DNA of 46,791 nt, taken from IMG/VR virus record IMGVR_UViG_3300017776_000029, positions 1-46,791 of that record. One strand, 5' to 3'. This document shows, one piece after another, positions 2,551 to 26,895 of the stretch; positions within the stretch are counted from its first letter, which is position 1, and each line of letters starts with the position of its first letter. The notes beneath the pieces were generated by a model, which saw only the letters and a list, made by a program, of their open reading frames with translations, had not been told where the DNA came from and did not search any database. Both the position numbers and the translations under genes were made by a program. Source of the stretch: a virus.

Positions 2551-2799
2551 ATGATGCGTATTGCTCGTAATCAAATCCTGTGTTCATTATTGACGGCACA
2601 TGAGGTAAATGGGTTCATGCAAAATCTTGACCCTCCGCAACTTGTGTATGTCAGACATGACGATAATTCAGACATCTATGATTATCTAAAGTTATCTGTG
2701 GGTGATATAGTCTATACTAAACAGACGCATACTGAATATGTTAGGACAATAAGCAATATGTTTATAATCCCTATTGAGGAAGTTGTGGGTGTTGAATAG
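2551..2799 (+). CDS. Putative cpn10/GroES-like co-chaperonin, highly diverged
   Basis: This is an 82-residue protein. Its last 36 residues follow the C-terminal pattern of GroES: the stretch LSVGDIVYTKQTHTEYVRTI matches the GroES segment VKVGDIVIFNDGYG and what follows, and the tail IPIEEVVGVE matches SESDILAIVE. The start (MRIARNQILCSLL) resembles the first GroES strand. About 15 residues are missing compared with the usual 97, and the mobile loop region (about 15-30, with GFMQNL) does not carry the usual IVL. It sits one base before a GroEL-type chaperonin gene, which strongly supports the call. Start chosen: ATG 2551 (or 2554), just after the previous stop; an upstream start in the same frame would overlap the ATPase. 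Confidence 0.6.
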   Translation: MMRIARNQILCSLLTAHEVNGFMQNLDPPQLVYVRHDDNSDIYDYLKLSVGDIVYTKQTHTEYVRTISNMFIIPIEEVVGVE

Positions 2800-2800
2800 T

Positions 2801-4297
2801 ATGCTGAACGGTAAAGAAGCCAAAGATAAACTGCTTATAGGTATTGATAAGGTGTATAGTGCTCTTGCGCCCACACTTGGTCCTGCGCCTCGATTAGTGT
2901 TGATTGATTCTGACGAACATGATAAAGACCCACTCATTCTTGACGATGGAGTAAACATTTCTAAGTTCATCAAATCAGATTGTCCCTATGAAATGGCAGG
3001 TATCAAGTTAATGCGTATGGTTGCTCACGAAGCACAAAAGGCTTCTGGTGACGGAACAACATCTGCTACCGTGATAGCAAAGCACCTAATAACAAACTTA
3101 TTTGAGGAAGAACATCACCCAGTTAGGCTTGAGAAAAACTTGCTTAAGGCATGGGAGAGTTTTAAGAATAGTTTAGAGGAATCCAAGTGGGATGCAAGCC
3201 CAGAAGAATTGCGTGAAGTCTGTTTGTCGGCACTTAATTATGACGAATTATCAGCGGGTTGCATCATGGAAGCGTTTGACAGCGTTGGTGCTGAAGGAAT
3301 TGTAATGGTGCATGAGCATCCAGGAGAATTAACTAAGGTCGAAACGACTCAAGGTTTGACTCTCAATAAGGGCTTTGTATCTCATCTATTTGCTGGTTCT
3401 CGTGATGGTAAAGTAGTCTATGAAAACCCTGCAGTATTAGTTACAGACCATGATATTGTCACCTTTGATGAATTAATTCCTGCGCTACAATGTGCTGCTG
3501 AAAACAAGAAGCCACTAATCATTATCGCTGCTGGTTGGAAACCACACGCTATACAGAATCTTTTGCTAAACGCTGTAAATGGTAAAGTTATGGCCTGTGC
3601 TATCAATGCACCTGCTGGTGGTGAAGAACGGGCTGAAATCTATGAAGATATAGCAACTTCATTAGGCTGTAAACCAATACTTGCTGCTAAAGGTGAGCGA
3701 TTAGAAGATAGAGATTATTCCCTTGAAGACTTTGGGTCTGCGGAATTGGTTTCCATTGACCGTAATACAACCGTATTTTCAGGCGTTGGTGGTAATGATG
3801 AAGAAATTGAGGCTCGTATAGAACACTTAGAACAACTCAAAGCCGACGCAGACCATCCATTCTATGAACAAAAATACAACATGAGAATCGCTAAACTAAG
3901 AGGTAAGATTGCTACTATAAAGGTCGGTGGCCTGACCGATGTTGAAGTTCGTGAAAGACATGAAAGAATTGATGATGCCGTAAATGCCGTTAGAAGTGCT
4001 TTAACGGGCGGTGTTGTGCTTGGTGGGGGTATGATGCCCTACAAGATAAAAACGGGCTTTGTAGCCTTCGATAATGCCCTTAAATCGCTTGTTCAAACAA
4101 TGGTAAAGAATTGGGGTCGGGAAATGCCCCAGACCGACGATGATTGGATATTCTTTGATGCTTCAACAGGAAGATTTAACGCTTATGATAATCATTTGGT
4201 TGATTCGCACGATGTAATTCTCAATTCGGTAAAGGCTGCTGTTTCTGTGGCAACACTTGTATTAAAGACGGAAACAATTTTGTCCGAAAGCAAATGA
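2801..4297 (+). CDS. groEL: Group I chaperonin, GroEL-like
   Basis: This 498-residue ATP-driven folding chamber subunit follows bacterial GroEL rather than the archaeal thermosome. It has TLGP and DDGVNI near the N-terminus, the nucleotide-binding GDGTTSAT, an apical domain aligning along its length (LIPALQCAAENKKPLIIIA against GroEL LPVLEAVAKAGKPLLIIAE), then IKVGGLTDVEVRERHERIDD containing the position of catalytic Asp398, and a glycine-rich GGVVLGGG. It is about 50 residues shorter than GroEL and lacks the GGM tail. Start chosen: ATG 2801, one base after the cpn10-like stop; a TTG start at 2774 would overlap. It probably folds capsid or tail proteins. The family assignment is firm; dependence on the neighbouring cpn10-like protein is inferred. 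Confidence 0.93.
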   Translation: MLNGKEAKDKLLIGIDKVYSALAPTLGPAPRLVLIDSDEHDKDPLILDDGVNISKFIKSDCPYEMAGIKLMRMVAHEAQKASGDGTTSATVIAKHLITNLFEEEHHPVRLEKNLLKAWESFKNSLEESKWDASPEELREVCLSALNYDELSAGCIMEAFDSVGAEGIVMVHEHPGELTKVETTQGLTLNKGFVSHLFAGSRDGKVVYENPAVLVTDHDIVTFDELIPALQCAAENKKPLIIIAAGWKPHAIQNLLLNAVNGKVMACAINAPAGGEERAEIYEDIATSLGCKPILAAKGERLEDRDYSLEDFGSAELVSIDRNTTVFSGVGGNDEEIEARIEHLEQLKADADHPFYEQKYNMRIAKLRGKIATIKVGGLTDVEVRERHERIDDAVNAVRSALTGGVVLGGGMMPYKIKTGFVAFDNALKSLVQTMVKNWGREMPQTDDDWIFFDASTGRFNAYDNHLVDSHDVILNSVKAAVSVATLVLKTETILSESK

Positions 4298-5314: not shown

Positions 5315-5461
5315 ATGGGTCTTATGCAGGTGCCAAACGATGACGCAGATATGTGCGCCAAGTGTGGTATCAGTACCAAAGGTCATTACATAATGTGGAA
5401 TAAACGCAGATATTGTTTGCCTTGTTTATCGGATATGGGAGTTGATGCAATTGACGAATGA
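5315..5461 (+). CDS. 48-residue zinc-ribbon protein
   Basis: ATG 5315 follows two bases after the previous stop and reads to TGA 5459-5461. It carries CAKC (residues 14-17) and CLPC (34-37) with 16 residues between, the pattern of a single treble-clef or zinc-ribbon knuckle. It overlaps the start of the ABC-GNAT gene, so it belongs to the same operon. It is one of several tiny two-knuckle proteins in this window. Function unknown; DNA or RNA binding is a reasonable guess. Confidence 0.65.
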   Translation: MGLMQVPNDDADMCAKCGISTKGHYIMWNKRRYCLPCLSDMGVDAIDE

Positions 5462-6617
5462 TATAGTGCTTGAATGTGAGGTGCCAACTGATGATGCACT
5501 TCAGTATGCTCTCGACATGTATGACATTGAAAAGGGTGCAGGATTAAAGACTGTCATTCCCGATAGAATCAATCCCCCTGAAGGTTGGGCTATTGGTGCT
5601 ATTGTAGGTGCTTCTGGTGCTGGTAAAACAACGCTATTAAGTAATCGTTTCGGACACAATGAGGATGCAATCATACCCACCGATGGCAGTTCTGTAATAT
5701 CGAACATATCACGCATTTTGGGTGGTAATCCTGCCGAAGCATCTCGTATTCTATCAAGTGTCGGATTGGGGTCTGTCCCTGCTTGGATTAGACCACCGTT
5801 TTGCCTGTCAAATGGTGAACGATTCCGATTTGATTTGGCCTGCACTATCGCAGATGCCATAGCAAATGACATAGAAATTATCACCATAGATGAGTTTACA
5901 TCTGTTGTTGATAGGAATGTAGCAAAGGCAGCCTCATTTGCGCTACAAAAGTTTGCTCGTAAGACGGGTCAAAAGTTGGTTGTCGCCTCATGCCATGACG
6001 ATATAGTTGAATGGCTAAATCCAGATTGGGTTTACAATCCTCACGATGGCGAAACCGTTGTGAGCGACGACAGGGGGTGGTCGGTTCAACGACCTAAGAT
6101 TGAACTCAAAATTCTCAGAGCAGAATATGATGCGTGGGACATGTTCAAGAAACATCATTATCTGACCGAAGATTTGAATAAGGCATGCAGATTATTTGTT
6201 GCTTATTGGGATGGAAAACCTGTTGCCTGTAATGCTATTCTTCCATTCCCTAACGGTGGCATACAGAATGGTTGGCGTTCTTCTCGTGTTGTAGTATTGC
6301 CTGATTATCAAGGATTAGGATTAGCGGGTGCATTGTCTGAATTTGTATCTTCTATGATAAAATCTCAAGAAGGAAGATTATTTGCTCGACTACGCCACCC
6401 TGCCTTAGCGAATCACAGATTGAACCGACCTAATACATGGAAAGAAACAGCCGTATCTCGCAAAGTGCATACGCATTCAGGTAATGAAGAATGGGGTTGG
6501 AAACAGAATGACCGTGAATGCTGGTCTTTTGAATACATTGGTGAACCATCAAGTCTGCATGACGCAGAACTGTTTTGGGGTATAAAATTTGAATCAGACA
6601 AACATGAGTGGCTATAA
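5445..6617 (+). CDS. ABC-type ATPase fused to a GNAT acetyltransferase domain
   Basis: The protein has 390 residues and two domains. Residues 45-205 are a soluble ABC ATPase: Walker A GASGAGKT (55-62), signature LSNGE (121-125), Walker B IITIDE (145-150) and switch His 184 in ASCHDD. It has no membrane part. Residues about 220-365 are GNAT-like, with the acetyl-CoA loop region VVVLPDYQGLGLAGAL (282-297). The order matches the family described as COG2401, ABC-type ATPase fused to a predicted acetyltransferase. The substrate is unknown; a nucleic acid base, as with the GNAT-like Mom protein, or a host protein are options. Start chosen: ATG 5445 after GGGAG; TTG 5442 is also possible. Confidence 0.88.
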   Translation: MQLTNDIVLECEVPTDDALQYALDMYDIEKGAGLKTVIPDRINPPEGWAIGAIVGASGAGKTTLLSNRFGHNEDAIIPTDGSSVISNISRILGGNPAEASRILSSVGLGSVPAWIRPPFCLSNGERFRFDLACTIADAIANDIEIITIDEFTSVVDRNVAKAASFALQKFARKTGQKLVVASCHDDIVEWLNPDWVYNPHDGETVVSDDRGWSVQRPKIELKILRAEYDAWDMFKKHHYLTEDLNKACRLFVAYWDGKPVACNAILPFPNGGIQNGWRSSRVVVLPDYQGLGLAGALSEFVSSMIKSQEGRLFARLRHPALANHRLNRPNTWKETAVSRKVHTHSGNEEWGWKQNDRECWSFEYIGEPSSLHDAELFWGIKFESDKHEWL

Positions 6618-12347: not shown

Positions 12348-13049
12348 ATGCTCTTAGTTGATGACAGGGAAAACCCCACTATAATACAAAAAATTCTGGC
12401 TAAGTGTGGTGACTCAGAATTAGAAAAAACAGGCTTTGCTAAAGTCTGTCGAATGAAATCTGGTGATTATGTCATCGGAAAAACAGGAATAGAAGCCAAA
12501 GAAATCAATGACTTGTATCACTCGATTATGGGTCATGGCAGATCTCGCACGATAGTTGGTCAGTTAGTTGAATTGCAGGAAACCTTTGAAAATCCTATGT
12601 TGGTTGTCTATAACAAAAAACTCAAACCGATGAAAAAGGGGCGACATCTGAACGGTGCTGAAGCGGTGAGGGAAATAGCCCGTATGGTGGCTGTCATAAA
12701 AAAGTTTAAAAGGGAGTTTTACAGCCACTTTCCTCGTATTAAGTATATGGAATTAGATAGCATGGATGAGATGGTGGACTTCTTAGCAGGTACTCACTAT
12801 CAAGAAACAGTCAAAGGAACTTCTAAACCTACACTACGCAGCAACTCAAAACCACTTCTTGATAATAGGGTCGCTGCGCTTTCTGCAATAAAAGGAATTA
12901 GCGTAAAAAACGCTGGTGACCTGTTAGACAAATTTGGTTCATTACCAAAAATACTACGCAGTCGCACCACCCAAAAACAGCTCATGTCGGTGAAGGGTAT
13001 TGGCAGGTCTAAAGCAAAAAGTATTTTGGAATTGAGAAACTCGATTTAA
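12348..13049 (+). CDS. XPF/ERCC4-type structure-specific nuclease
   Basis: The protein has 233 residues. Residues 1-150 are an ERCC4 nuclease domain: VDDREN (4-9), GDYVIG (39-44) and EAKEIND (49-55), the counterparts of the DxRE, GDY and ERKxxxD motifs. The Arg of ERK is Ala here. Residues about 170-233 carry a tandem helix-hairpin-helix (AIKGISVKNAGDLL and VKGIGRSKAKSIL) for branched DNA binding. The order and size match the C-terminal half of archaeal XPF/Hef without the helicase. The likely job is cutting flaps, forks or packaging intermediates. Last gene of the left + strand block. Confidence 0.9.
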   Translation: MLLVDDRENPTIIQKILAKCGDSELEKTGFAKVCRMKSGDYVIGKTGIEAKEINDLYHSIMGHGRSRTIVGQLVELQETFENPMLVVYNKKLKPMKKGRHLNGAEAVREIARMVAVIKKFKREFYSHFPRIKYMELDSMDEMVDFLAGTHYQETVKGTSKPTLRSNSKPLLDNRVAALSAIKGISVKNAGDLLDKFGSLPKILRSRTTQKQLMSVKGIGRSKAKSILELRNSI

Positions 13050-13099: not shown

Positions 13100-13558
13100 T
13101 TAATTTATAATTTCCAAGTGTGGCGACCACCATACTTCTCTATGCTCAAAATGCTTCCAAGTACTGTTAGACATAATTTTTTTGGCTTCAGAATGTGCAA
13201 GTTTAATATAACCTAAATTGCTGACAACGCTCTTTAACTGAGACATTTTCGATTCTTCAATTGGATTTAATACTGCTACAATCGGTTTTCTAATTCGTTT
13301 GTTTCTTTCCTGTAAAATTTTAGTGTGATAACCTTTACCTCTAAAACCTCTCTTAACATAGGTATTTCCGACCAAAATAAAAGAATCTATGTATGCTGTG
13401 CAAGTGTATGCCACTGGGACATCTCCTTCATACAAAAACCAATATGTCGCAAAATCAAAAAGAGGTGGATAGCCCTTTTCTGTCGCTGGAATAATTTTTT
13501 CTCCCCAAATACTTTCAGCGTTTTCAATACCCATAACTAATTTTAAGAAAATGCTCAT
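13100..13558 (-). CDS. GNAT-family N-acetyltransferase
   Basis: A 152-residue enzyme with the acetyl-CoA loop RGFRGKGYHTKIL (about 70-82) preceded by the central strand SFILVGNTYV, then further helices and a tryptophan-rich end (REVWWSPHLEIIN). It is the last gene of the late - strand block, and its ATG overlaps the stop of the giant tail gene (TGATG). The substrate cannot be told. A viral late gene of this kind may modify a virion or host protein. A GTG one codon upstream (13561) is an alternative start. Confidence 0.78.
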   Translation of the reverse strand: MSIFLKLVMGIENAESIWGEKIIPATEKGYPPLFDFATYWFLYEGDVPVAYTCTAYIDSFILVGNTYVKRGFRGKGYHTKILQERNKRIRKPIVAVLNPIEESKMSQLKSVVSNLGYIKLAHSEAKKIMSNSTWKHFEHREVWWSPHLEIIN

Positions 13559-16500
13559 CACCTTGAAACTACATTTGTGTCAAAGACTTCTCCAGGACCA
13601 TCAACCATATTTGCGCCTGTTTTCATAGTTACGCTGATTGATGAAAGTTTTACGGATTCTTGAGCTGCTGTATCACCATTGATACCAGCCGCTCTTCTGA
13701 TTGTAATTTCTAAGTGATTACCTGCTACATCAGCACCTTCTATCTTTTGATTGAATAAATTGTGTCTTAAACCATTTTGGTTTATAGGGATGACAAGAGT
13801 TTCCGTTTTGCTAAATCCTGTTTCAACAACCTTTACAGTAGTGTATATCTTGGCAAACCCTTCTGCCGTTGGATTTGTATTAAGCCCTATTCCACTTGGA
13901 GTTGGAATGGTACTTTGGTTAGTTTGAGCAGACTCTGAATGCACAGTAGTATCAACCTTAGAAAGAATAGTTACTGAATTATTTGTAACATTGTTAGGTA
14001 CTACTTGTATTCCAGAAACTTCTGATACTTCGGCTTGTTCAGAATCACCAGCTGCAAATGTTCTGCCTGGCAATGAAATTCCAGTTTCGCTTAGAGCAGC
14101 ACTTCCCCCCGATGGAGTAAAAACACCGTCATTAGAAACTAAAACAGAAGTTTCTATTGCTGCTGGCAATGGTCTGTCTTGACCTAATAACCCCCATTCC
14201 GAATTACCCATAGGCACCTGCATTTTCTTTTTTAGTCTTCCCATAATGCCTTTAGATACTTGATTAATACCTATTGTGCTTGCAGTAGTGTAGCCTGTTT
14301 GACTACCAAATGTTCCTGGTGGGGTCAATTCAGGTCTTGGTCTTGGTTTGGGTGCAGGACCTGTTGTATCTCCACCTGGAGGCACAGGTTCGCCATCGTC
14401 TTCATCAGAATCTCCACGACCCGATGTTCCACCTGGTCCTGCTGGACTTGGTTTAGGGTCATTAATAATAGGAGGAGTCAAAAACATAGAACCTAAATTA
14501 CTTAAGAAATGAGATTCATCAGTTGTTAGACCTAATACTACTTCTTCATGTCTTAGTGGGTTTATTTTCCATTGAACATTATTAATAATCAAAGGTTTGT
14601 TTGTAAATCCATAGGTTGAATCGCTATACTGTAGAGCAGTTCCTGTTCTAAAGTTAATGTCGTCATTGATAATCAATCTCGGTGCATACCACAAAGTCCT
14701 GTCCCTCATACCAGACCCAAATTCGTCATAATATCTGCACCCAAGAGGGAATATAGACTTGTCATTATATGAACCGCTGCCGAGGAGGGTGAAGTAATTT
14801 GTCGGTGCGGATTCAACAGGTACTCCGTGAGCAGGATTTAAGATATTTCCTAATGTATCTCCACAACGCATTCTGATTAAAGATTCTAAGTATTCTCTGT
14901 TTACTGAAACTATAATTTTATTGACAATACCAGTTCCAAATGCGTATGTGGGTGGCAAATTAAGTTCAAGAAAACCATTATCCAATGAGCCATAACTAAC
15001 GGTCTGTGAAAAGAAATCGTTTGCGTGGCTATGCCCTTGACCAGCTGCATTAACTGCTGCAATGTGATTCAAATCTCCTCTACCACAAGCCCCAAACCAT
15101 TCTGCTTCACCTATTAGATTTGGGTCTCCATTTGAGTCAGTACCGTTAGAAGAAACAAAGCCTGTGTTTCTTGTTGCATTATCTCTGAATATAGGGTCAA
15201 TAACTGTTATAATAAACTTTGCCGATGTAGCAGCCTCGTCAATTGTTCCAGGAGTAGGCGCACCACTTCTTGTCCCATCAACGCTAATAATAAATCTTAA
15301 TTGATTTCCTGTTGTCATACTGTATTTAGGTAAGCCTTGAGGAACATAAACAACTTCAATAGCATTAGCAAGGCTGTTTGCACCATACCAATAATTATTT
15401 CCAGCCCAAGTAATTTCATCAGAAGCATTTACAACTGAAGCATCCCTGTTAGATGCTCCAATAAGAGGAGTATTGGTGTTATTGAGTTGGCCGTCAAGAG
15501 CACTTACTGAACCAGAAAAGAAATTGTTGTTCATCCTTCCCATCATATAGTGCGGGTACTTACCGTATACTGTCCTTTGTGGGTCAGCAATATACCCATA
15601 CCTTGCACCATCAAGCATAACATCATCTGATTGCGTTCCTCGCACTACTTTTGCATTTAATGAAACGGGTGCTTTCTTTGCTTTCAAGTATTCTTGCTTT
15701 GCTAAATACTCTGCTTCTGCTTTAGTTCCCACATCGGGCATATCCATAATTTTCCAGCGAATGTTTTCTGTCCCTACTACTTTTGGATAGTCACAAAATG
15801 ACTTAGAATCATTGAAGTAAACTCTAACATGAGTTACTCTTTGTTGTATGCTTGTGTTCATATTAGATATATTCAAAACGCTTCTGTCGAGCGAGCGGAA
15901 AGAATTGTAGCCAGGTCTAAGTTCTATTCTGCCATCAGGACCAATTTGATAAGTAAATGTTTGTCCGAGGCCTGAAGTTCCAGTACCAGCTGCTTTTTGA
16001 ATTTTTACTATGGCACTATACATTGTTGAATTTTTAGCATTTACTACACTGCCAAAACTGTCAAATTGTGTATTATTGTGACCCCAGTGGGGACTGCCAA
16101 TAGTTGCAGAGCCATTAGTGCTCATTATTTTTGTTTGTGGCACATTCTTAAAGGATGAAATACCTGTAAATTGAGATTTACCCAACCAATTTTTTGTCAA
16201 AGACAACATATTTAAGAATCTAAACTTTTCGCTTTCAAACCATGTTCCGCTGTTTTCGTTTTCGACCTTACCAGAAATACGCATCATAAATCTCATACCA
16301 CTAAGAGGAGCATACGAGTTATACGCAGTAACACTATCATAATCTTCTAAGTCAAATATCGCTCTTGAAGATGAACCGTTTTGTTGAGCAGCCTTAATGT
16401 TATTTGCTGCTATTGTTCTTTCAGCAGCAGTCTTGGTTGGAACTCCGTTCAAACCTCCTACAATATCAACGAACACATTGTTTAAATAGTTATCAACTGT

Positions 16501-19500
16501 ATTTCGACCAGACCAAGCATAATACCATGTATATGTTGTCTTTGTCTGTCCAGCTCCTTCAACTGCTACTATCCTTCCAACTCCGCTATCATCCCATTCT
16601 GTAACATCGTCGAGGTATAACCTGTTAATTCCACTAAAATTATCTGGTTGATTTCTTTTTACTTCCGACGCATCTTGAATAAAGTCCATTTGTTGAGGGT
16701 GAGGCATATATGGGTGTTGAATAGTTTTGTATGAAGGCATTGCTTCAATCCAATAGTTATCCATCATAATTGGGAATCCGTGACCTACTGCAAAGTAATC
16801 TTGTAGGTCTGTCCTCCCACCACCTATTCTTCCTGTCCTTCCAAGATTTGCTTCAGTATTCACATTCCAGAATTTGCTTGTGTCAATAACAACAAAGGAA
16901 CCTGCTTTATCTTCCCAATTGTGGTATATTGAATTAGAGTCAGAGTTTGAGCCAAGAGGTAAAGCAGACCAGGGTGCTTGAGTTACAGGTTCAAGCGTTG
17001 AATCTAATTCCCATATGTCTAAGTCTTCACCAACCTTCAAATCAGCAAACTTAACAGGCGAGCCGTCAGGTTCTTCTGAATCAACAAATTCCATGCTAAC
17101 ACTATAATTATTAGAAATAGGCATCATTAAACCAAACTTCTTTTTCCTTAAACCAGAATCAGCGTTAGCAGTTCCATCATTTCTCATATCAGCCCAGAGA
17201 ATCCAAATGTGTTTGTAATCGTTATCAATTTCTCTAAATCTTACAATACTTCCTGCAGAGTGGAATTTAGACAAAAATTGTACTCCTGTAATTGAAGCAT
17301 AAGTCTGGTCGACTGCGTTAAAACCAGCTAAACCTGTAAATGTAAAAGAATCTACTGTTCCGTCAGCATCCACAATTTCTCCAACGCCACCTGATGTAGC
17401 CATTGTAGTTACTAATCCTATTGGGTTTCCTGTTGTTTGGTCGTTTAATGCTAATCTTGTATTTGCTATTGATACTGTTTGACCAGTTGTATATGCGTTA
17501 GGAAAAATATCTGAAGATAATAATACATCTGGGTGATAGGTTGAACCATTTTTACCTTGACTGATTTTCTTTTCCTTGATACGCCCAAACTGCATTTGAA
17601 ACCACTTAGATTTAGGCATATCTTGAATCCAACGAGAATGTACTGCTCTATATGGTCTGGCAATAGAATTATTAGCAGCAGCAAGAGGTGCAGTCGCTTG
17701 TTCGTTGCAATATTCTAAGTCAGGACTATCATACAAAAACCAACCAACTTCTCCAGCAGTTCCTAATCCAAGCCCTGTTATTTCGTTGTGGTTATAATAT
17801 AGGTTCGCTAAATCTCCATAAGTAGCGTTATATGTTCCGTTACCTAATTGAGAAACTTCAAGATAATGTGTCCCATCAATCCATGTTTGGCCTGGGTCTG
17901 GCATATTACCAAAGCCTGTGATTTCAAATACAAGAGTTACAATCCCATCCCAATTATTACCTGTTGTCCCTTGTGGAATTTGAATTGGGTTTCCTTGAGC
18001 GTCATTCCCACCATATCTAATTACCAAGCGTTGCCCGATGTATAAATCCCAGATGTTGATATTTTCACCTGTCTTAAAGTAAAGTTTTGTTATTAAATTC
18101 CCAGCAGGTTCTGAGCCACCATGAGCATTATCAAGTATATTAGTAGCACTCCAATATTGCCAAACATTGTCGCCATTAGAATTAACTCTAAACCAACCCA
18201 ACCTATTTAACCAATCTTGCTGAGTATAGGAAAGTGTAGAATGAGCAGCATTCCAACTGGCATCAAACATTTGTCCAGCAAAAGTATCGTTATTTTGATT
18301 TTGACTTGTTGGTGGGCCTGGTAAAGCAGACCCAAACCCATTCCAACTTCTATACAAATTATCAAACGGAGTACTTCCTACAGTATAACCTCCACCAGGA
18401 ACTTGTGCTCTTCCTGTCTTTGGGTTGTTAGGAATATCAGCGTCAATCAAAGCAAAATGATAACCACAATTTGAGCTCCTTGTTGTTTGTTGCCAATTTG
18501 TAGGGTCAGGAATATCTCCAGACCAAAGGGTATTAGGGTAATCGTGTTGAAGTGGTGTAATGTTTGCTGTTGTGTGCTTAACCCTATTACTGCTGGTTAA
18601 TCTCATTGGAATATCAAGGTTACCTCTTGTTAGGTCACGAGGAGTTACTGTTACTCCATTAATTGTGGTGGATGAGTCGCTTGGTAATTCAGATATTCTA
18701 TTATACCTTTGACCTGACTGACTTGCACCTCTAAAAACTCTTGTGTCTGAAATAGTAACATATTGCTTTTCCCAATCTATTAAATGTCTTGTGTTGCCTG
18801 CAGAAGAACTAACAAATTCACCACCTAAAAGAGCTGGATTTTTATAGATTTCATCGAATTGCAAAGTCCAGTAATGCTTTAGTCCTGTCTTATGCCTTCC
18901 GTCATCATAACTGTCATTGTTGTCAATAGCCAAAATTTTACCTGATGGGACATATGTTTTGTCAATGTAAAAGTGATTTGTTGATGGGTCGTGAACTGTA
19001 AATGAGCCACTATAATTAGTTGAGCCTTGTATGTTTATTGTTTCTCCTTGAGTATATCCGTGAGCATCAGAATAAACTCTTAGTGGGTTTGTAAGTGCAG
19101 ATGGATTAGCATAAGTCGCTTCAGGCTTTTGGAATCCATAAATGTGAGTTTGACCTACATAATCGTATATAGTATCAGGTGCTCCTCCTTCTTCATTATA
19201 CATTTGAATTGGGTGTCCCGAATTTAATCTCATTCTTGTTGATGTATCTGCATTATAGTTCGGTCTTTCATAACCTAAAGTACCTGTGCCTCTTTCAAGA
19301 GAAGTAGCACCTAAATGCAACTTTTCAATAAAGTTTGCAGATTCGTATGGTCGCCAGCCAATAGGTTCGGTTTCATCTATTTGTTCACTTTGTCCTACTT
19401 CCCAAATAGGTATTGTTCGGTCAAGAGAAGCCAAATAATCTCTGGCACTCAACTTTATGATTTTTTCTCCAGGTCGGTTTTGGTTGCTGGTGTATCTTTC

Positions 19501-21171
19501 AATATGCCCTCTCCAAACGCAACGATGGATATTATCACGGAATAGCATCAGTTCTTGCAGTTGGTTTGTTTCTTCTTCAAAGACCTTAAAAATATCTAAG
19601 TTATCGAAATCATCATGTATGTCTAACTGGCATTGAGATATACCGTTTGAAGTATAGTTAATAGAAGCCCTTGACAAAGTAACCTGTTCACCGCCAATGC
19701 CAGATGAATCTGCAATATCACGCCAAAGATATGCTCGGTCAAGAAGTGTTGTAATTTGAACATAATCTGTGTCTGTCCCTGCTTCTTGGTAGCCATCAAC
19801 CAATCCACTATCAAGGGACAAATCCCAACCAAAAACTTCTGGTGCTTTGTATTTATTTCCTGTATCGGGGTTAATTCCTATTGCTTGTGCTGAAGCAACA
19901 ACTTCACCGTCATGTAATACATCATAAGTTCCTGCAGTCCAGTCAAACTTAAATTCAATATCATTCCAAATTTGCAGCAAAGTCCAGCGCCTTGTTTGGT
20001 CGGCTGATGGTATAGCATTATCAGATGGAAAAGATGTGCTTTCAGGCGTTTGTCCGAAGTTTGCTAATACATTGTAGCCTCCGTCAACTGCGCCACCAGC
20101 CATTACAAGAGAAGCAGAGTTTGAACCTGTTAATGCTGATTTTTTAAACCAGGGGTTTCTGTCAAGATAACCTGTTTTTAGACCTGTTGCTTCGGCTGTC
20201 AAAGGCGAGCCGCTGCTTGCTGCGTTTTGTTTTCTTGAAGAAGTGGTAAATGTGTATGTAGCAGCTGGTACTGCTGAAGAAAATCCGTTAGCGTCAGTGT
20301 AGTCATCCCTTCTAAATCCTACTTTTATTGTGTAAGAATGACCTGTTGATTGTCCGTTGTCCCAACCAGACCAATTGCGCCAAGCCATTCTAAGTCCAAA
20401 AATGTCTTTATCAGATGCAGCTCCTAAATTAGCGTTATAGGAAACAAGCCTTCTGGTCATATTTTCTCTAATGTGAGTGTTAATTGCTAACATAGGTTTT
20501 CCAGAATCAAGAGATTCAATTGGTTCTAAGATAGCCTTTGAAAATGGGTCTCCTGCATAACCTGTTTTTAGTTGGTTAGCGTCTGGAGCAACTTCTCCTA
20601 CATGAACGCTGCAAATGTTTGCATATTGAAAGATGTTAGTCGCTGAAGCAAAGGAATCAGATTCAGCACTCCCACCTTTGTATAAATTGCTTGAAACCAT
20701 ATCAGGAATCGTGATTGCTGCGCTTTTTCCTTGCGATGGGTCATTGTTACCCAAATGAACAGAATAACGCCCAGAAGTGTTATATCCGTTTGTTAAAGTT
20801 TGAAAGGAATCAAGAGATGCGTCTGCACCAAATTTGTATCGGTTGCCTTGTGTAATACCATCGGGATATGAGGGTTGAGCCTTTCCTTCATACTTCCCAG
20901 AGTTTTTTCTCATAGTGTCGTTTGTTAAAAATTCATGAGCACCTAAATTATGAGTTTCATCTCCGTCAACTCGCTCTTTGTATGCCTTTTTGTATCGAGG
21001 GTTAAGGCGAGCCTCACCATTTAAAGAATTACCAAAATGGCTTGCTGTGTGAACAATTAGTCCAGTTAAATTAGGGTTGTTTTCATCATCAGCAATTGCT
21101 CGACTTGCGTTAAAGTCGTCATAGTAACCTGCCAAAAATACTGAATACTTTCTATCTACTGACTTTGCCAT
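13558..21171 (-). CDS. Giant tail-tip/hub protein
   Basis: At 2537 residues this is the largest gene, placed directly after the tape measure as tail-hub and adhesin genes usually are. The N-terminal 490 residues look like a globular virion domain. About 490-590 reads like a phage tail hub barrel (LSRASINYTSNGISQCQLDI, then MLFRDNIHRCVWRGHIERY). About 1770-1860 looks like a second hub part (QQRVTHVRVYFNDS, and AEAEYLAKQEYLKAKKAPVS). Roughly 1200 Gly/Asn/Thr-rich residues lie between them. An acidic and then proline-rich linker (PAPKPRPRPELTPPG, about 2245-2290) precedes a C-terminal beta domain. It is probably the host-binding tail tip. Family calls are by pattern only. Confidence 0.75.
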   Translation of the reverse strand: MAKSVDRKYSVFLAGYYDDFNASRAIADDENNPNLTGLIVHTASHFGNSLNGEARLNPRYKKAYKERVDGDETHNLGAHEFLTNDTMRKNSGKYEGKAQPSYPDGITQGNRYKFGADASLDSFQTLTNGYNTSGRYSVHLGNNDPSQGKSAAITIPDMVSSNLYKGGSAESDSFASATNIFQYANICSVHVGEVAPDANQLKTGYAGDPFSKAILEPIESLDSGKPMLAINTHIRENMTRRLVSYNANLGAASDKDIFGLRMAWRNWSGWDNGQSTGHSYTIKVGFRRDDYTDANGFSSAVPAATYTFTTSSRKQNAASSGSPLTAEATGLKTGYLDRNPWFKKSALTGSNSASLVMAGGAVDGGYNVLANFGQTPESTSFPSDNAIPSADQTRRWTLLQIWNDIEFKFDWTAGTYDVLHDGEVVASAQAIGINPDTGNKYKAPEVFGWDLSLDSGLVDGYQEAGTDTDYVQITTLLDRAYLWRDIADSSGIGGEQVTLSRASINYTSNGISQCQLDIHDDFDNLDIFKVFEEETNQLQELMLFRDNIHRCVWRGHIERYTSNQNRPGEKIIKLSARDYLASLDRTIPIWEVGQSEQIDETEPIGWRPYESANFIEKLHLGATSLERGTGTLGYERPNYNADTSTRMRLNSGHPIQMYNEEGGAPDTIYDYVGQTHIYGFQKPEATYANPSALTNPLRVYSDAHGYTQGETINIQGSTNYSGSFTVHDPSTNHFYIDKTYVPSGKILAIDNNDSYDDGRHKTGLKHYWTLQFDEIYKNPALLGGEFVSSSAGNTRHLIDWEKQYVTISDTRVFRGASQSGQRYNRISELPSDSSTTINGVTVTPRDLTRGNLDIPMRLTSSNRVKHTTANITPLQHDYPNTLWSGDIPDPTNWQQTTRSSNCGYHFALIDADIPNNPKTGRAQVPGGGYTVGSTPFDNLYRSWNGFGSALPGPPTSQNQNNDTFAGQMFDASWNAAHSTLSYTQQDWLNRLGWFRVNSNGDNVWQYWSATNILDNAHGGSEPAGNLITKLYFKTGENINIWDLYIGQRLVIRYGGNDAQGNPIQIPQGTTGNNWDGIVTLVFEITGFGNMPDPGQTWIDGTHYLEVSQLGNGTYNATYGDLANLYYNHNEITGLGLGTAGEVGWFLYDSPDLEYCNEQATAPLAAANNSIARPYRAVHSRWIQDMPKSKWFQMQFGRIKEKKISQGKNGSTYHPDVLLSSDIFPNAYTTGQTVSIANTRLALNDQTTGNPIGLVTTMATSGGVGEIVDADGTVDSFTFTGLAGFNAVDQTYASITGVQFLSKFHSAGSIVRFREIDNDYKHIWILWADMRNDGTANADSGLRKKKFGLMMPISNNYSVSMEFVDSEEPDGSPVKFADLKVGEDLDIWELDSTLEPVTQAPWSALPLGSNSDSNSIYHNWEDKAGSFVVIDTSKFWNVNTEANLGRTGRIGGGRTDLQDYFAVGHGFPIMMDNYWIEAMPSYKTIQHPYMPHPQQMDFIQDASEVKRNQPDNFSGINRLYLDDVTEWDDSGVGRIVAVEGAGQTKTTYTWYYAWSGRNTVDNYLNNVFVDIVGGLNGVPTKTAAERTIAANNIKAAQQNGSSSRAIFDLEDYDSVTAYNSYAPLSGMRFMMRISGKVENENSGTWFESEKFRFLNMLSLTKNWLGKSQFTGISSFKNVPQTKIMSTNGSATIGSPHWGHNNTQFDSFGSVVNAKNSTMYSAIVKIQKAAGTGTSGLGQTFTYQIGPDGRIELRPGYNSFRSLDRSVLNISNMNTSIQQRVTHVRVYFNDSKSFCDYPKVVGTENIRWKIMDMPDVGTKAEAEYLAKQEYLKAKKAPVSLNAKVVRGTQSDDVMLDGARYGYIADPQRTVYGKYPHYMMGRMNNNFFSGSVSALDGQLNNTNTPLIGASNRDASVVNASDEITWAGNNYWYGANSLANAIEVVYVPQGLPKYSMTTGNQLRFIISVDGTRSGAPTPGTIDEAATSAKFIITVIDPIFRDNATRNTGFVSSNGTDSNGDPNLIGEAEWFGACGRGDLNHIAAVNAAGQGHSHANDFFSQTVSYGSLDNGFLELNLPPTYAFGTGIVNKIIVSVNREYLESLIRMRCGDTLGNILNPAHGVPVESAPTNYFTLLGSGSYNDKSIFPLGCRYYDEFGSGMRDRTLWYAPRLIINDDINFRTGTALQYSDSTYGFTNKPLIINNVQWKINPLRHEEVVLGLTTDESHFLSNLGSMFLTPPIINDPKPSPAGPGGTSGRGDSDEDDGEPVPPGGDTTGPAPKPRPRPELTPPGTFGSQTGYTTASTIGINQVSKGIMGRLKKKMQVPMGNSEWGLLGQDRPLPAAIETSVLVSNDGVFTPSGGSAALSETGISLPGRTFAAGDSEQAEVSEVSGIQVVPNNVTNNSVTILSKVDTTVHSESAQTNQSTIPTPSGIGLNTNPTAEGFAKIYTTVKVVETGFSKTETLVIPINQNGLRHNLFNQKIEGADVAGNHLEITIRRAAGINGDTAAQESVKLSSISVTMKTGANMVDGPGEVFDTNVVSR

Positions 21172-21173
21172 TA

Positions 21174-24100
21174 CTAATCCACTGCTCCACTTCTAACCAC
21201 TCCAGCATCAACTAAAGCACTAACTACTTCTTCGGTAATCGTATCAACCATTTCATGTAGCAACATACCATTAAAGTTGTTAGTTACAACCAGCTCAGTG
21301 TTTGCTATAAGGTTTTCGACTCCTTTATTTTGGACTTGCTTAACGAAGTCACCTGATATACCTGATTGGGAAAGACCGAAGAACATTGCTTCACGGTTGT
21401 TGTTAAATTCCAACATTGTATCTCCTAAATGTTGTATTGAATCAGCCACATCATCAATATCATTCATGCCACCAGACCCCATGCTGCTAATTTCATCAAC
21501 GAGGAATTGTGCTTCTTCAGTCGTCATAGAAAATTGCTTTTCTAAGTCATCCACTACCTCTTTGTATTTCATAACAGAGCCTGTGTCAAAGTCGCCTGAA
21601 TCATCAACTGCTACTGCCAACATTTCTATTTCTTTATCGGTAAAGTTTTTGTCTAAGAAGTCCATAAATTCAGTAGTATATTCACCACTACTTGCTACTG
21701 CATTTGCGTAAGTTTCACTAAAGTTTGAAGCTGAATTTCCTATAACTTCGAGCAAATCTTCCATTTGAGCAGCACTTGCATTAATTCCTTCTTCTTGTTG
21801 GAAAGCAGCAATTATGGCAGCAACAGTCTTTGTTGTATCATCTTGCAGACCTTTAGTTTCTCGATATGAGCCCATACTTGCTCCACCAGTAACATAATTT
21901 AGAATACCCATTCCCAGTGCATCATCGTATTCGTCTTCATATTCGTCTCTAAATTGACTCACTGCGCTGGCTGCATTTGCACTTGCGTCATCAGACATTT
22001 TCTTTTGCATTTCTGCTAATTCGCCTTGTAATACGAGTTGAGCAATCAATAGAGTTTCTTGAGTTTGTAAAGCACCAACATACTTTTGAGCGGCCTCTAA
22101 TTGCATCATAAAGAGCCTTTCTTGAACAGTAGCACCGTCACCTGCTTTTTCTTTTAATTCATCCATTTCATCTTTTACAATTCCAATGGCTGTTTGAGTT
22201 TGCTCTAATCCCATTGCATTAATTGTATCAGAATCTATTCCAGCTTCTAAAAAGGCATCACGAACCATTGTTGGAACATCTTCTAATGCTGGTTCTAAAC
22301 CTGTATTTCTTAAGTCTGTTAAAAGTGTGAGGCTGTCAGTTAAGTGTCCGTTAAATTCAACAACACCCTCGCTCATGCTGTCTACTGAATCTGTAAATAA
22401 GTATGTGGCAGCAGTAATAGCAACTACAAGAGCGATACCAAGACCTGTGCTTACCAAAAAGGCTTTCATACCAGCAGCAGCAGCTCCAGCAGCAGCAGCA
22501 ACACCTTTTAAGGAAAAGGAAAGTGTGTTGTTTGCAACAGCAGCACCCATACCTGCCGTTGCTTGTGCGAGCATAGAATTTGTCATCTGCATCATTTGTA
22601 CTGTGCTCATAATCATAACAGGCATCATTAACGCCATGCTTGCTTTAGCACCCTTAGATGAATCGTCAAATAAAGTAATTAATGCAGATGCACCTCCTAA
22701 AATACCACTATACTTTGTCATTGTAGCATTCATAGCCATTTGCTTTGCCATCATCCTATCTTGGGTTTGAGCATGAGCAGTTTGAGCCATAATTATTTGA
22801 AACAAATTGGCAATTTGTTCCTCAGTTTGGAAGTTGTTTTCTTTCATTAACTGTGTTAAAATTTTAAGAGCCAAAGCCTCTTGGTCAGTCAAATCTTCCT
22901 TAATGAATTTTTTGGCAGTTACCCTTTCTATAATGGCAATTTCTTCTTGGCTCACATTATTTAGCATATCTTGAGCACTCATGTGTTTATTCAAAGACAA
23001 AGCAATTTTTTCATTTTGCACTAACCTTTGAACCATCATTTGTAGATTTTTACCCTTTCTTTTGTCCTCTTCACCACCAATCAGCTTTTCTAATTCAAGT
23101 GACTGTCGAGCCATCAACAAGTCTGATTCGCTAATGCTTAACTTCATTCTTTTATCATTGAGAAGTTGATTTGCTAAGTCTTGCTCTATCATTCCTAACT
23201 CAACCAACCTCCCAAGCAGTTGAACTTCATGTCCTGCATTTTGTACAGTTGTAGTACCACTTCCAACCTTAGCCATTTGTATCGCATGAATATTTCTCAA
23301 TGCTTGTTCTTCTTGGTTAATTAGCATCAATTCATTACTTCTTAGTGCTACACCAGCCCTAACTGCTTCTAATTCTTCAGCAGACATTACTTGATTAGCA
23401 GCTGCCCTCGCTTGCACAACAGCAAGAATGCTGTTTTGTGCCTGTTCACTTTGCTTTACAGCATTAAGAATTTGACCTTCTAAACCAGCAATTTCAGCAG
23501 CAAGTCCTCGTCTTCGATTAGCAAGAGCGTTTATATCGCCTGCAGCTGAAGCCTGCATGTGCATTTTCAATAAAGTATTAGTCCCAGAAAATTCTTTCAT
23601 CTGCTCATATGCGAGTGCTGTTTTACCTATGTTAGCAATCCTTTGTCTAACTTGCATTTCTTTTATTGCCATATCCGTTGTAAAACTTTGCATTTGTGCT
23701 GCTTGGTTATAGATTTGTGGATTAACCAATTGCTCGCCTTGCATAGCCCTTAGAATCGTTTGCTGGGTCTGCATTGCTACACTTAGGGATTTAATGTTAA
23801 TCATGGCTTCCACGACAGGCCCCATCACCTTTTGCACCCTTTGGAATGCAAAAGCAAAGTCCATACCTTTTTTTACTACTGAGCCTAAAACAGCATCCAT
23901 AATATCGAAGTTTTCAAAGTCTAATTTTGCTAATGCCTTAAAATCATTAGTTATACCTCCAAGAGGACCCTCAGACCCAGATTCGTAAAAGTCGGTCATA
24001 GCCCTGTTAAATGATATTTGTTGTTTTGTCGCTTTCATTTGTGCTGGGATAAAAGCAGTACCCATTGCTGCTTCGGTATTCTTTAACTCGGCTTGGAGTT

Positions 24101-25181
24101 TCTGGAGTTTAGTTGCTTGGTCGTCAAGTTTAATATTAACTTCATCTTGAGCATCTGATAACCCAAGAGCAGCCTGAGTCGCTAATGTTTGTTGTCTATC
24201 AGCACCTTCAACTAACTTAAGGAATCTTACATAGTGGTCGTTACCAGCAACTATTTGAGCAATATGTTGCTTTTCAGCATCTTCTAACTTAGGGAATTGT
24301 TGCGCTAACTGTTGAACAATGTCAGAAAGAGGAAGCAAGTTGCCTGCAGTATCTTTAACTTGAACACCATAAGCCTGTAAAATCTTATTGTTATCGTGGG
24401 TATCAGAACCTAATCGAGCATAAATCATTTTGAGGGCACGACCAGCCTTACCCATCTCTTCACCAGATTCAACCATTACTGCAGCACTTGCAGCCATATC
24501 AGCAATAGATTCACCTGTCATGTGTGCCTGACTTGCGAATTGATTCATAATGAAAGTAATTTGTTGCATTGTAGCAGCAGATCTGTTTTCAACTGTGTTT
24601 AGTTGAGTCAAAGTCTTCATAGAATTTGCTCTAACAAAGTTTGCTCTTTCTTCAGCATCCATAGCCTCAATTTGAGACTTAGCCATACCACCGAACATAA
24701 AGTTAGTCTGTTGTTGCAGGTTTACCATCTTTTGCATAGCATCTTGGGTTTCCATATCACCAATCAACGCAAACTTAATACCTACCTCAGTCGCAGCAAC
24801 AACTGAACCTTCACCACCTACTACATCTTTAAGTTGTGCCATTTTAGCACCAGCCTCAAGAGCCTTATCAGCAGTAAATCCAAATTGTAAACCAATGCTC
24901 TTAATTTGTTCTCTGACTTCTTCAAGATTTTCAGTTTCACCCATAAACTTGTCAAATTGAATACGAGCCTTAGCAAATTCTTGAGCCAAAGGGACAGTTG
25001 CTTGGACTAATCCATCCATTTGCTCTGTTATCTGGTCAACTGCTTGGTGAACACCCGAAAGACCGTTAAGCATAATAGCATTCATAATGTTCATCTGTGC
25101 TCTTGCATCAGACAAAAGACGCTTCGCTTGAAATGAACCAACCACTTCAAACATTACCATTGCTGCGCCTGTGGTTGCCAT
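21174..25181 (-). CDS. Tape measure protein
   Basis: A 1335-residue protein that sets tail length. It is almost wholly helical. The N-terminal 350 residues match the TP901-type core (ARIQFDKFMGETENLEEVRE, then FALIGDMETQDAMQKMVNLQ). Long coiled coils rich in Met/Gln/Ala follow, and a hydrophobic membrane-like segment is near residue 910-940 (STGLGIALVVAITAATYLF). At one residue per about 1.5 angstrom a tail of around 200 nm is implied. It follows the tail chaperone pair, the standard order. GGGAGTGAT lies just before the ATG. Confidence 0.92.
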   Translation of the reverse strand: MATTGAAMVMFEVVGSFQAKRLLSDARAQMNIMNAIMLNGLSGVHQAVDQITEQMDGLVQATVPLAQEFAKARIQFDKFMGETENLEEVREQIKSIGLQFGFTADKALEAGAKMAQLKDVVGGEGSVVAATEVGIKFALIGDMETQDAMQKMVNLQQQTNFMFGGMAKSQIEAMDAEERANFVRANSMKTLTQLNTVENRSAATMQQITFIMNQFASQAHMTGESIADMAASAAVMVESGEEMGKAGRALKMIYARLGSDTHDNNKILQAYGVQVKDTAGNLLPLSDIVQQLAQQFPKLEDAEKQHIAQIVAGNDHYVRFLKLVEGADRQQTLATQAALGLSDAQDEVNIKLDDQATKLQKLQAELKNTEAAMGTAFIPAQMKATKQQISFNRAMTDFYESGSEGPLGGITNDFKALAKLDFENFDIMDAVLGSVVKKGMDFAFAFQRVQKVMGPVVEAMINIKSLSVAMQTQQTILRAMQGEQLVNPQIYNQAAQMQSFTTDMAIKEMQVRQRIANIGKTALAYEQMKEFSGTNTLLKMHMQASAAGDINALANRRRGLAAEIAGLEGQILNAVKQSEQAQNSILAVVQARAAANQVMSAEELEAVRAGVALRSNELMLINQEEQALRNIHAIQMAKVGSGTTTVQNAGHEVQLLGRLVELGMIEQDLANQLLNDKRMKLSISESDLLMARQSLELEKLIGGEEDKRKGKNLQMMVQRLVQNEKIALSLNKHMSAQDMLNNVSQEEIAIIERVTAKKFIKEDLTDQEALALKILTQLMKENNFQTEEQIANLFQIIMAQTAHAQTQDRMMAKQMAMNATMTKYSGILGGASALITLFDDSSKGAKASMALMMPVMIMSTVQMMQMTNSMLAQATAGMGAAVANNTLSFSLKGVAAAAGAAAAGMKAFLVSTGLGIALVVAITAATYLFTDSVDSMSEGVVEFNGHLTDSLTLLTDLRNTGLEPALEDVPTMVRDAFLEAGIDSDTINAMGLEQTQTAIGIVKDEMDELKEKAGDGATVQERLFMMQLEAAQKYVGALQTQETLLIAQLVLQGELAEMQKKMSDDASANAASAVSQFRDEYEDEYDDALGMGILNYVTGGASMGSYRETKGLQDDTTKTVAAIIAAFQQEEGINASAAQMEDLLEVIGNSASNFSETYANAVASSGEYTTEFMDFLDKNFTDKEIEMLAVAVDDSGDFDTGSVMKYKEVVDDLEKQFSMTTEEAQFLVDEISSMGSGGMNDIDDVADSIQHLGDTMLEFNNNREAMFFGLSQSGISGDFVKQVQNKGVENLIANTELVVTNNFNGMLLHEMVDTITEEVVSALVDAGVVRSGAVD

Positions 25182-25221: not shown

Positions 25222-25829
25222 TTAATCGTTCCGCTTGGCTCGCTTTTGTTTTCGCTTTTCCCATGCTGAACGAGCGCTTTTTGAGCCACCCTTTTTGCCT
25301 TTCTTGGCTTTTTCTGTTGCTTCTCCAATTTGGTCTTGTATCTCGCAAGCAACTGCTAAATCTAATTCCAAACGGTATGCTCCGCCTGGCTCGCAATACT
25401 TCATTACTAAGTCCGATGGAAGGACACCCTTGTAGGCTTGGCACAAGACGGGTGCTATCTTGTAAATTAGACCAAAGGGACTGCGCCCTCATTCGTGTCA
25501 CCCCTAACAAACATCAACAATTCTCTGAGTTCGTTAGAAGTTAGAATGCCCAAATCAAAATCGGCAGGTTCAACAATACATTTTGGAATCCATTCTGTGA
25601 TTTGCATTTCAACACCGACATTTTGTTCTTCGAGGTATTCAACAAACTCCGCTTGTTGGTCTTCAGTCCATTCTTCGACTGACATACCAAAGTCACGGAA
25701 TTTACGCAAGGCTCGACCTTGAGCTGCTTCCCACTTCATTCTATCTAAACCGCTGGCTTGTCGGACTACGAGTTTAACTTTTCCTGATTCGTCGTCTCCG
25801 AACTCAAATTCTTTTTTCATTACTGGCAT
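25222..25829 (-). CDS. Tail assembly chaperone long form (gpGT-like), made by -1 frameshift
   Basis: Ribosomes that slip back one base on CCCTTTG (25473-25479) leave the short frame two codons before its stop and continue as GLIYKIAPVLCQAYKG and on to the stop at 25222-25224. This adds 83 residues; the long form has about 202 from ATG 25829. The added part is lysine-rich at the end (KKGKKGGSKSARSAWEKRKQ). In lambda and many other phages exactly this arrangement, just before the tape measure gene, gives gpG and gpGT, which coat the tape measure during tail assembly. The slip site is seen in the sequence; its use is inferred from position and known cases. The coordinates span both frames. Confidence 0.8.
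25467..25829 (-). CDS. Tail assembly chaperone short form (gpG-like)
   Basis: A 120-residue acidic helical protein (ATG 25829; GTG 25838 would give 123, ATG 25820 would give 117). It has a beta start (FEFGDDESGKVKLVVRQ), then helices (LDRMKWEAAQGRALRKF, EYLEEQNVGVEMQITEW), like tail chaperones of the gpG/Gp13 type. It lies between tail tube and tape measure, the standard position, and carries a slippery heptamer just before its stop. No Shine-Dalgarno site is obvious, so the start is uncertain. Confidence 0.8.
   Translation of the reverse strand: MPVMKKEFEFGDDESGKVKLVVRQASGLDRMKWEAAQGRALRKFRDFGMSVEEWTEDQQAEFVEYLEEQNVGVEMQITEWIPKCIVEPADFDLGILTSNELRELLMFVRGDTNEGAVPLV
25473..25479 (-). promoter_or_regulatory. 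-1 ribosomal frameshift site CCCTTTG
   Basis: Read on the - strand in the gpG frame, the heptamer is C CCT TTG, an exact X XXY YYZ slippery sequence. The zero-frame stop TAA follows one codon later. The -1 frame stays open for 83 codons. Confidence 0.82.
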
Positions 25830-25890
25830 TTTTTTCACTTCGCTACTAAACTATTCTAAACTTTGTCTTAAAGACACTAACTAATACTAA

Positions 25891-26895
25891 TCAAATGTAT
25901 GCGCTTGCTTGTGCGCTTCTAATGGTGCATTCGGCCATACAAGTGTTTGTATTGTCGAACAACCCAAAGAAAGGAGTTGTCATGGTTTGGTGGTCACGAC
26001 CAGAAACAGATGTTTCAGGTGAATCAAATACAACCTTGAAGAAGTCAAATTCAATGTCAGCGTTTGCTGTTTCAATATACTTCATACGGAGTGCTGGAGT
26101 ACCAACAACGGATGAATCGTAAATGAATGTTGAACCAGATGCTTGAGTCAAACCGTTGTATGTTGGCTCTGATGCGCCAGCAGTATACATTGGTTCGTTA
26201 AATTCAATGTTTCCGCTAATAGCCCTACGAGTAACAGGAGGTGCTTGTGTAAGAGTCAAGTTTCCAATAGAGAAACCAGAATCAAGGTCACGGTTAATTG
26301 AAAGTTCAAAGTCAGAAGATTTAACCGATGCAGACTTTGTTGCATTGCCGTTAAAGAAAATTTCTGCGTTAGCATAATACATTGGTTCATTGTCTGGGAA
26401 AGAAGGAGTCGCCATTGTTCCAGATGAAGGAGATTCAGATTTTCCTTGACATTCAAAGGACATAGTAGTAAAGTCACCAACGCTTGCAGATACAGACATT
26501 TTGTTTACAGACATACCTGTAAAGATGTGGTCACGAGCAGTTCTTCCGATGTGGATAGAAAAGGTTGGGTAAAAGTCAGTAGTTGCAGCACCTTCTTCAA
26601 GTGTATGGACATTCGGAGAACCTGCCACTACAGTATCAGTAGCGAATAGTCCAGCAATCATCGAACAAGTAAAGTCATCAGTCATCATAACGGTATTCAA
26701 AGAACCTTCACAGTATTCTTTACCACGAACCACCTTCGATGCACCATACTTAGACATATCTTCACGAACCATTGTTTCGTAAATATGTTTGAATGATTCG
26801 TCGTCTATTTCACCATATACAGGTGAGGTTGCAGGGTCTGTTCCATAAGTTGTTTCTTTCTCGATTGATACATAACGGCTGTCGAAGTCTCCCAT
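25891..26895 (-). CDS. Major tail tube protein
   Basis: A 334-residue, beta-rich protein with the N-terminal pattern of phage tail tube subunits (SIEKETTYGTDPATSPVYGE, common to HK97- and lambda-like tube proteins). Later come KSSDFELSINRDLDSGFSIG and RAISGNIEFNEP, typical of the tube fold. It stands between the tail terminator and the tail chaperone pair. AGGAGATGAT lies just before the ATG. Many copies stack to make the flexible tail tube. Confidence 0.85.
   Translation of the reverse strand: MGDFDSRYVSIEKETTYGTDPATSPVYGEIDDESFKHIYETMVREDMSKYGASKVVRGKEYCEGSLNTVMMTDDFTCSMIAGLFATDTVVAGSPNVHTLEEGAATTDFYPTFSIHIGRTARDHIFTGMSVNKMSVSASVGDFTTMSFECQGKSESPSSGTMATPSFPDNEPMYYANAEIFFNGNATKSASVKSSDFELSINRDLDSGFSIGNLTLTQAPPVTRRAISGNIEFNEPMYTAGASEPTYNGLTQASGSTFIYDSSVVGTPALRMKYIETANADIEFDFFKVVFDSPETSVSGRDHQTMTTPFFGLFDNTNTCMAECTIRSAQASAYI

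Follow-up and report, generated by a model that had tools for sequence, protein, structure and literature searches.

Comparative evidence for a programmed -1 ribosomal frameshift in the tail assembly chaperone genes of a family of archaeal-type marine viruses

Two overlapping open reading frames (ORFs) on the minus strand of the IMG/VR virus record IMGVR_UViG_3300017776_000029 (positions 1 to 46,791, analysed over their whole length and referred to as the window) raise the question of whether ribosomes that begin the first, G, may be directed to continue into the second, T, which overlaps G in the -1 frame and has no conserved start codon of its own. From the comparison of related loci, we regard it as very probable that a programmed -1 ribosomal frameshift yields two tail assembly chaperones from one start, in the manner of gpG and gpGT of phage lambda. 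The G frame ends in ...GAG GGC GCA GTC CCT TTG GTC TAA, where C CCT TTG is an exact X XXY YYZ heptamer separated from the stop by one codon, as the original prediction had it; its further statement, that the -1 frame stays open for 83 more codons with a lysine-rich product, was borne out by reading of the minus strand, the product ending in a Lys/Arg-rich tail. After an upstream TGA the -1 frame opens just three codons before the heptamer, so that any slip is confined to a 19-nt overlap. A registered XXXYYYZ heptamer is expected in such an overlap by chance in about 3% of cases; a frameshift is thus suggestive in the single genome, and the case for it rests on comparative data. Of the two candidate starts of G, ATG 25829 is more likely than GTG 25838, because the MPV start (MPVMKK at this ATG) is conserved in relatives. 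With this start G has 120 amino acids and the predicted fusion 119 + 83 = 202, so that of the 122+83-residue product originally proposed the 83-codon extension stands and the length of G is revised. No translation of T is predicted outside the G-T fusion.

Viral contigs were scanned with G and with T, both as single sequences and as profiles, which gave about 160 loci; in 111 distinct loci both G and T could be mapped, and T lies in the -1 frame relative to G in every one of them. Four further loci gave G or T alone, their matches lying near contig ends. A third scan used the tail tube protein alone, so that loci were not chosen by the feature itself: all 70 newly fetched loci with G have T in the -1 frame, 24 distinct new loci all carry CCCTTTN, and the five loci lacking G stop at the tail tube gene or shortly beyond it. 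Over both surveys the -1 relation holds in all of approximately 135 distinct loci, from many metagenomes. That related genomes might have neither the heptamer nor an open -1 frame had been named beforehand as grounds for rejecting the frameshift; the relatives keep both, with CCCTTTN in 102 of the 111 loci and agreement from the 24 independently anchored ones. The counts given below over representatives (67 at 85% clustering) ignore shared ancestry, but 34 clusters at 70% identity show the same pattern.

The conservation of the slip site extends to positions that the protein sequence leaves free. Among the 111 loci the site is CCCTTTG in 70, CCCTTTA in 17, CCCTTTT in 15, A/GCCTTTT or GCATTTT in eight, and in one exception (L069) a different but intact heptamer, TTTTTTG. 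Of 67 representatives, 63 have C as the third-position base ahead of CCT, where 11.4 would be expected, and 66 use CCT as the Pro codon, against a background of 28%. Identical [VI]P[LF] tripeptides at other places in the loci are encoded with CCCTTT in only 3 of 88 cases. Synonymous positions inside the heptamer are, on these sequences, frozen. One group of loci (L013, L021, L034 and others) has the G stop directly after the heptamer, for example CCCTTTA TAG, and a stop codon in the A site at this point could add to slippage.

A tree built without the slip-site residues allowed the contributions of P-site and A-site pairing to be separated. The CCC match was lost approximately six times, always inside a single clade, which comprises 23 loci and 10% of tree length and has TTT in the A site, a codon that re-pairs perfectly after the shift; outside this clade the P-site match was never lost without another intact heptamer. 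This distribution is consistent with tandem slippage, P-site re-pairing being less necessary where the A-site codon re-pairs perfectly. It also bears on the proposal that the frameshift is real and involves the slip of a single tRNA, either in the A site or in the P site after a stall. In its favour, the -1 frame persists in eight CCTTTT-clade members despite the loss of P-site re-pairing, and in several members a stop codon follows the heptamer immediately; we consider a single slip nevertheless unlikely, since CCC is kept in 87 of 87 loci that combine CCT at the P site with TTG or TTA at the A site, which argues that both pairings matter at such sites.

Selection on T is closely similar to that on G. 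Median pairwise ratios of nonsynonymous to synonymous substitution rates (dN/dS) are 0.234 (T) and 0.229 (G), and none of the pairs exceeds 1; the T frame is free of stops, whereas the two remaining frames of its DNA hold 800 and 1064. Variability by column follows position 3 of the G frame before the heptamer and position 3 of the T frame after it, with no gap at the junction, and conservation of T residues sets in with the very first post-slip codon. By this measure T is under purifying selection equal to that on G, and a -1 frame without such selection, the other ground for rejection that had been named, was not what the loci contain. The same data weigh on the possibility that T is a separate protein, made by termination and reinitiation or from its own start codon after the G stop. 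The G stop and T lie a few codons apart, and some T frames have an ATG, GTG or TTG near their start; however, conservation begins at the codon right after the slip, and in 15 of 67 representatives the first such codon comes 16-38 codons into T, after or within the most conserved block, so that reinitiation there would lose all or part of that block. Reinitiation also leaves the frozen heptamer unexplained, and we judge a separate T to be very improbable. Still less credible is a change of frame by transcriptional rather than ribosomal slippage: some members do have TTTT runs at the site, but the commonest site offers three C and three T alone, known transcriptional slippage requires much longer homopolymers, and both triplets are conserved in G-frame register, as fits tRNA slippage. 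Finally, an error of sequencing or assembly, or the decay of a gene, which indels in single contigs can resemble, is already refuted by the comparison of loci, the same -1 break recurring at the same site in 135 distinct loci from many metagenomes, with a dN/dS of 0.23 for T and no pair above 1.

Gene order places G and T where a programmed frameshift is familiar. A tail tube homologue lies upstream of G in 106 of 106 loci and a tape measure homologue downstream of T in 89 of 94, so that the pair sits between tail tube and tape measure genes, as in the arrangement of the lambda gpG/gpGT type; the position assigned to it originally, from unaided reading of the DNA, agrees with the domain matches listed for the flanking genes in Table 1.

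Table 1. Coordinates of the G/T locus and its flanking genes in the window
Feature	Position	Strand	Evidence or remark
ORF G, tail assembly chaperone (putative), 120 aa	25467..25829	-	ATG 25829; stop TAA 25469-25467
Slippery heptamer C CCT TTG, X XXY YYZ in G frame	25473..25479	-	CCCTTTN in 102/111 loci
ORF T, -1 extension, 83 codons + stop TAA 25224-25222	25222..25473	-	open in -1 frame, all loci
Putative stimulator, Shine-Dalgarno-like GAGGG, 6 nt upstream of heptamer	25486..25490	-	anti-Shine-Dalgarno pairing above synonymous expectation
Tail tube protein gene (context)	25891..26895	-	PF18906, E 2.9e-21
Tape measure protein gene (context)	21174..25181	-	PhageMin_Tail, phrog_28

Under the programmed -1 frameshift, most ribosomes would read G and terminate one codon past C CCT TTG. 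A minority, paused by a Shine-Dalgarno (SD)-like run of purines, GAGGG, that lies about 6 nt ahead of the heptamer, would slip back one base, with the P-site tRNA-Pro passing from CCU to CCC and the A-site tRNA-Leu from UUG to UUU, and would read on through T to give the 202-amino-acid fusion. By analogy with lambda gpG/gpGT, G may coat the tape measure and T may recruit tail-tube subunits. The proposed stimulator is itself non-random: where Glu-Gly codons lie 11 to 6 nt before the heptamer, GAG GGY is far commoner than synonymous choice predicts, the Glu codon being GAG in 33 of 48 cases, compared with 20% at Glu-Gly pairs in other places. Upstream of the heptamer the predicted pairing to the 16S anti-SD is stronger than in synonymous controls (z about -8), and just downstream of the element it is weaker than in such controls (z about +5), the anti-SD being the standard archaeal sequence, which is assumed and may not be that of the host. 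Gene starts of these viruses also show SD-like pairing above shuffled controls, which makes an SD-like interaction at the slip site plausible, and the upstream element probably stimulates slippage. Of the two kinds of stimulator that had been suggested as worth seeking, an upstream SD-like element was thus recovered and a conserved downstream stem was not.

Several observations weigh against the frameshift as proposed. No stem or pseudoknot downstream of the site was convincingly conserved when RNAalifold was applied to the 67 representatives, and the RNA structure z-score just after the site (-0.63) is hardly lower than further into T (-0.35 to -0.51). Eight loci, all of the CCTTTT clade, have no intact heptamer (ACCTTTT, GCCTTTT or GCATTTT) and yet keep T in the -1 frame. 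Neither G nor T has a significant match to any Pfam or PHROG chaperone family, and the structural match of G to a known chaperone is weak (Foldseek E 0.23; Z 4.9, 83 residues aligned, root-mean-square deviation 3.7 Å). Support comes from sequence comparison, and the G-T product itself is predicted: the sequences show the conserved frame relation, the slip site, the selection on T, the gene order and the non-random upstream element, and what is inferred is actual slippage and its efficiency, together with the role of the stimulator, the functions of the proteins and the archaeal host.

The structural match just mentioned is to the HK97 tail assembly chaperone 2OB9, the best in the PDB by Foldseek and structural alignment for a confident AlphaFold2 model of G (predicted local distance difference test, pLDDT, 87); among the weak viral structural matches of G, phage entries named "tail assembly chaperone" recur. 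The model of T is helical (pLDDT 84) and has one good viral match alone, 47% identical. G matched nothing significantly among PDB sequences and showed no profile similarity to the chaperone of the halovirus HVTV-1, and among named phage genomes neither the tail tube nor the G-T fusion found a match.

The lambda G/GT frameshift is textbook, and the slip site of lambda is G GGA AAG. The present pair resembles the lambda chaperones (Levin 1993; Xu, Hendrix and Duda 2004, as cited in PMC5009743) in its position between the major tail protein and the tape measure, in a second ORF that lies in the -1 frame and lacks a start of its own, in an X XXY YYZ heptamer close to where the first ORF ends, and in its predicted fusion product. 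It differs in the slip site, here C CCT TTN, in sequences unlike known chaperone families, and in being known from sequence alone. In viruses with archaeal hosts, a -1 tail-chaperone frameshift at the same gene position has been predicted for HVTV-1, HCTV-1, HCTV-2 and HCTV-5 (Pietila 2013 and Sencilo 2013, as cited in PMC5009743) and, in 2021, for Hardycor1 (PMC7911831), the HVTV-1 record annotating its chaperone as a joined coding sequence; a +1 version has been proposed for HSTV-2 and the HF1 group (PMC5009743, PMC7230728). The present case is therefore not the first such frameshift in archaeal viruses, as had originally been supposed, the halovirus cases having been predicted in 2013 and 2021. 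A tail assembly chaperone is annotated in Aoguangviridae/magroviruses (PMC10768690), and the accounts of these viruses in PMC10768690 and PMC10160649 mention no frameshift. A heptamer of the same type, C CCU UUA, was proposed together with a pseudoknot for Giardiavirus, which unlike the present virus is a eukaryotic RNA virus, and is disputed in PMC8230311; no phage or archaeal use of C CCU UUN was found in the open literature, where absence is not proof. What is new is the family of marine sequences, C CCU UUN as a slip site in archaeal-type viruses, the depth of the comparative evidence, and the natural experiment on P-site versus A-site pairing.

For programmed -1 frameshifting in archaea, the evidence comprises the Saccharolobus fucosidase, the one gene that has been tested, and a small number of halovirus predictions, each from a single genome (PMC8211752). 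The approximately 135 related viral loci provide comparative evidence for a -1 shift under selection in an archaeal-type virus lineage and define its cis signals, and the natural variation among them (a last base of G, A or T; loss of the P-site match) allows a direct test on archaeal ribosomes. We offer as an evenly balanced proposal that the signal for archaeal ribosomes consists, family-wide in these marine viruses, of the upstream SD-like GAGGG and C CCU UUN, without downstream structure, and that P-site re-pairing becomes dispensable once an A-site UUU re-pairs perfectly. For annotation, T is best treated as a domain of the fusion and not as a stand-alone gene.

An archaeal host is quite likely from the gene content. 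The PolB of the window is nearest to haloviral PolB; an ERCC4/XPF-type (Hef-type) nuclease with helix-hairpin-helix, a repair gene of archaeal/eukaryotic type, lies at 12348-13049 on the plus strand, and its family occurs in 13 of 19 relatives and, among 14 control genomes, in archaea only; and the RFC small subunit of one relative (G012) is closest to archaeal RFC. HVTV-1 also encodes PolB, an RFC small subunit and a gene annotated as Hef nuclease. Despite the archaeal look of the virus, the chaperonin at 2774-4297 (plus strand) is closest to bacterial GroEL (group I) and not to the archaeal thermosome. The T and G profiles gave no host link in GTDB genomes. PolB, GroEL, and opposed replication and structural clusters are shared with the Aoguangviridae, marine archaeal tailed viruses (PMC10768690). 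Unlike Aoguangviridae/magroviruses, the window and its 19 relatives yielded neither PCNA nor archaeal primase (PCNA_N and DNA_primase_S in 0 of 20 records); TFB was not found, and MCM-profile matches were weak, the best one scoring higher as AAA_5. Magrovirales have a large archaeal-type replisome with PCNA, primase and MCM and a genome of 90-110 kb (PMC10768690, PMC12999244). Given the missing PCNA and primase, the weak MCM matches and contigs of 46.8-73.8 kb (window and relatives), which are possibly fragments, membership of that order is not claimed.

Two other genes of the window may be recorded. Directly downstream of the tape measure gene, a 2537-amino-acid ORF (13558-21171, minus strand) possibly encodes a giant tail or fibre protein, and an ORF at 5442-6617 on the plus strand joins an ABC-like P-loop part to a GNAT acetyltransferase part and strongly matches phrog_11143, a family of unknown function.
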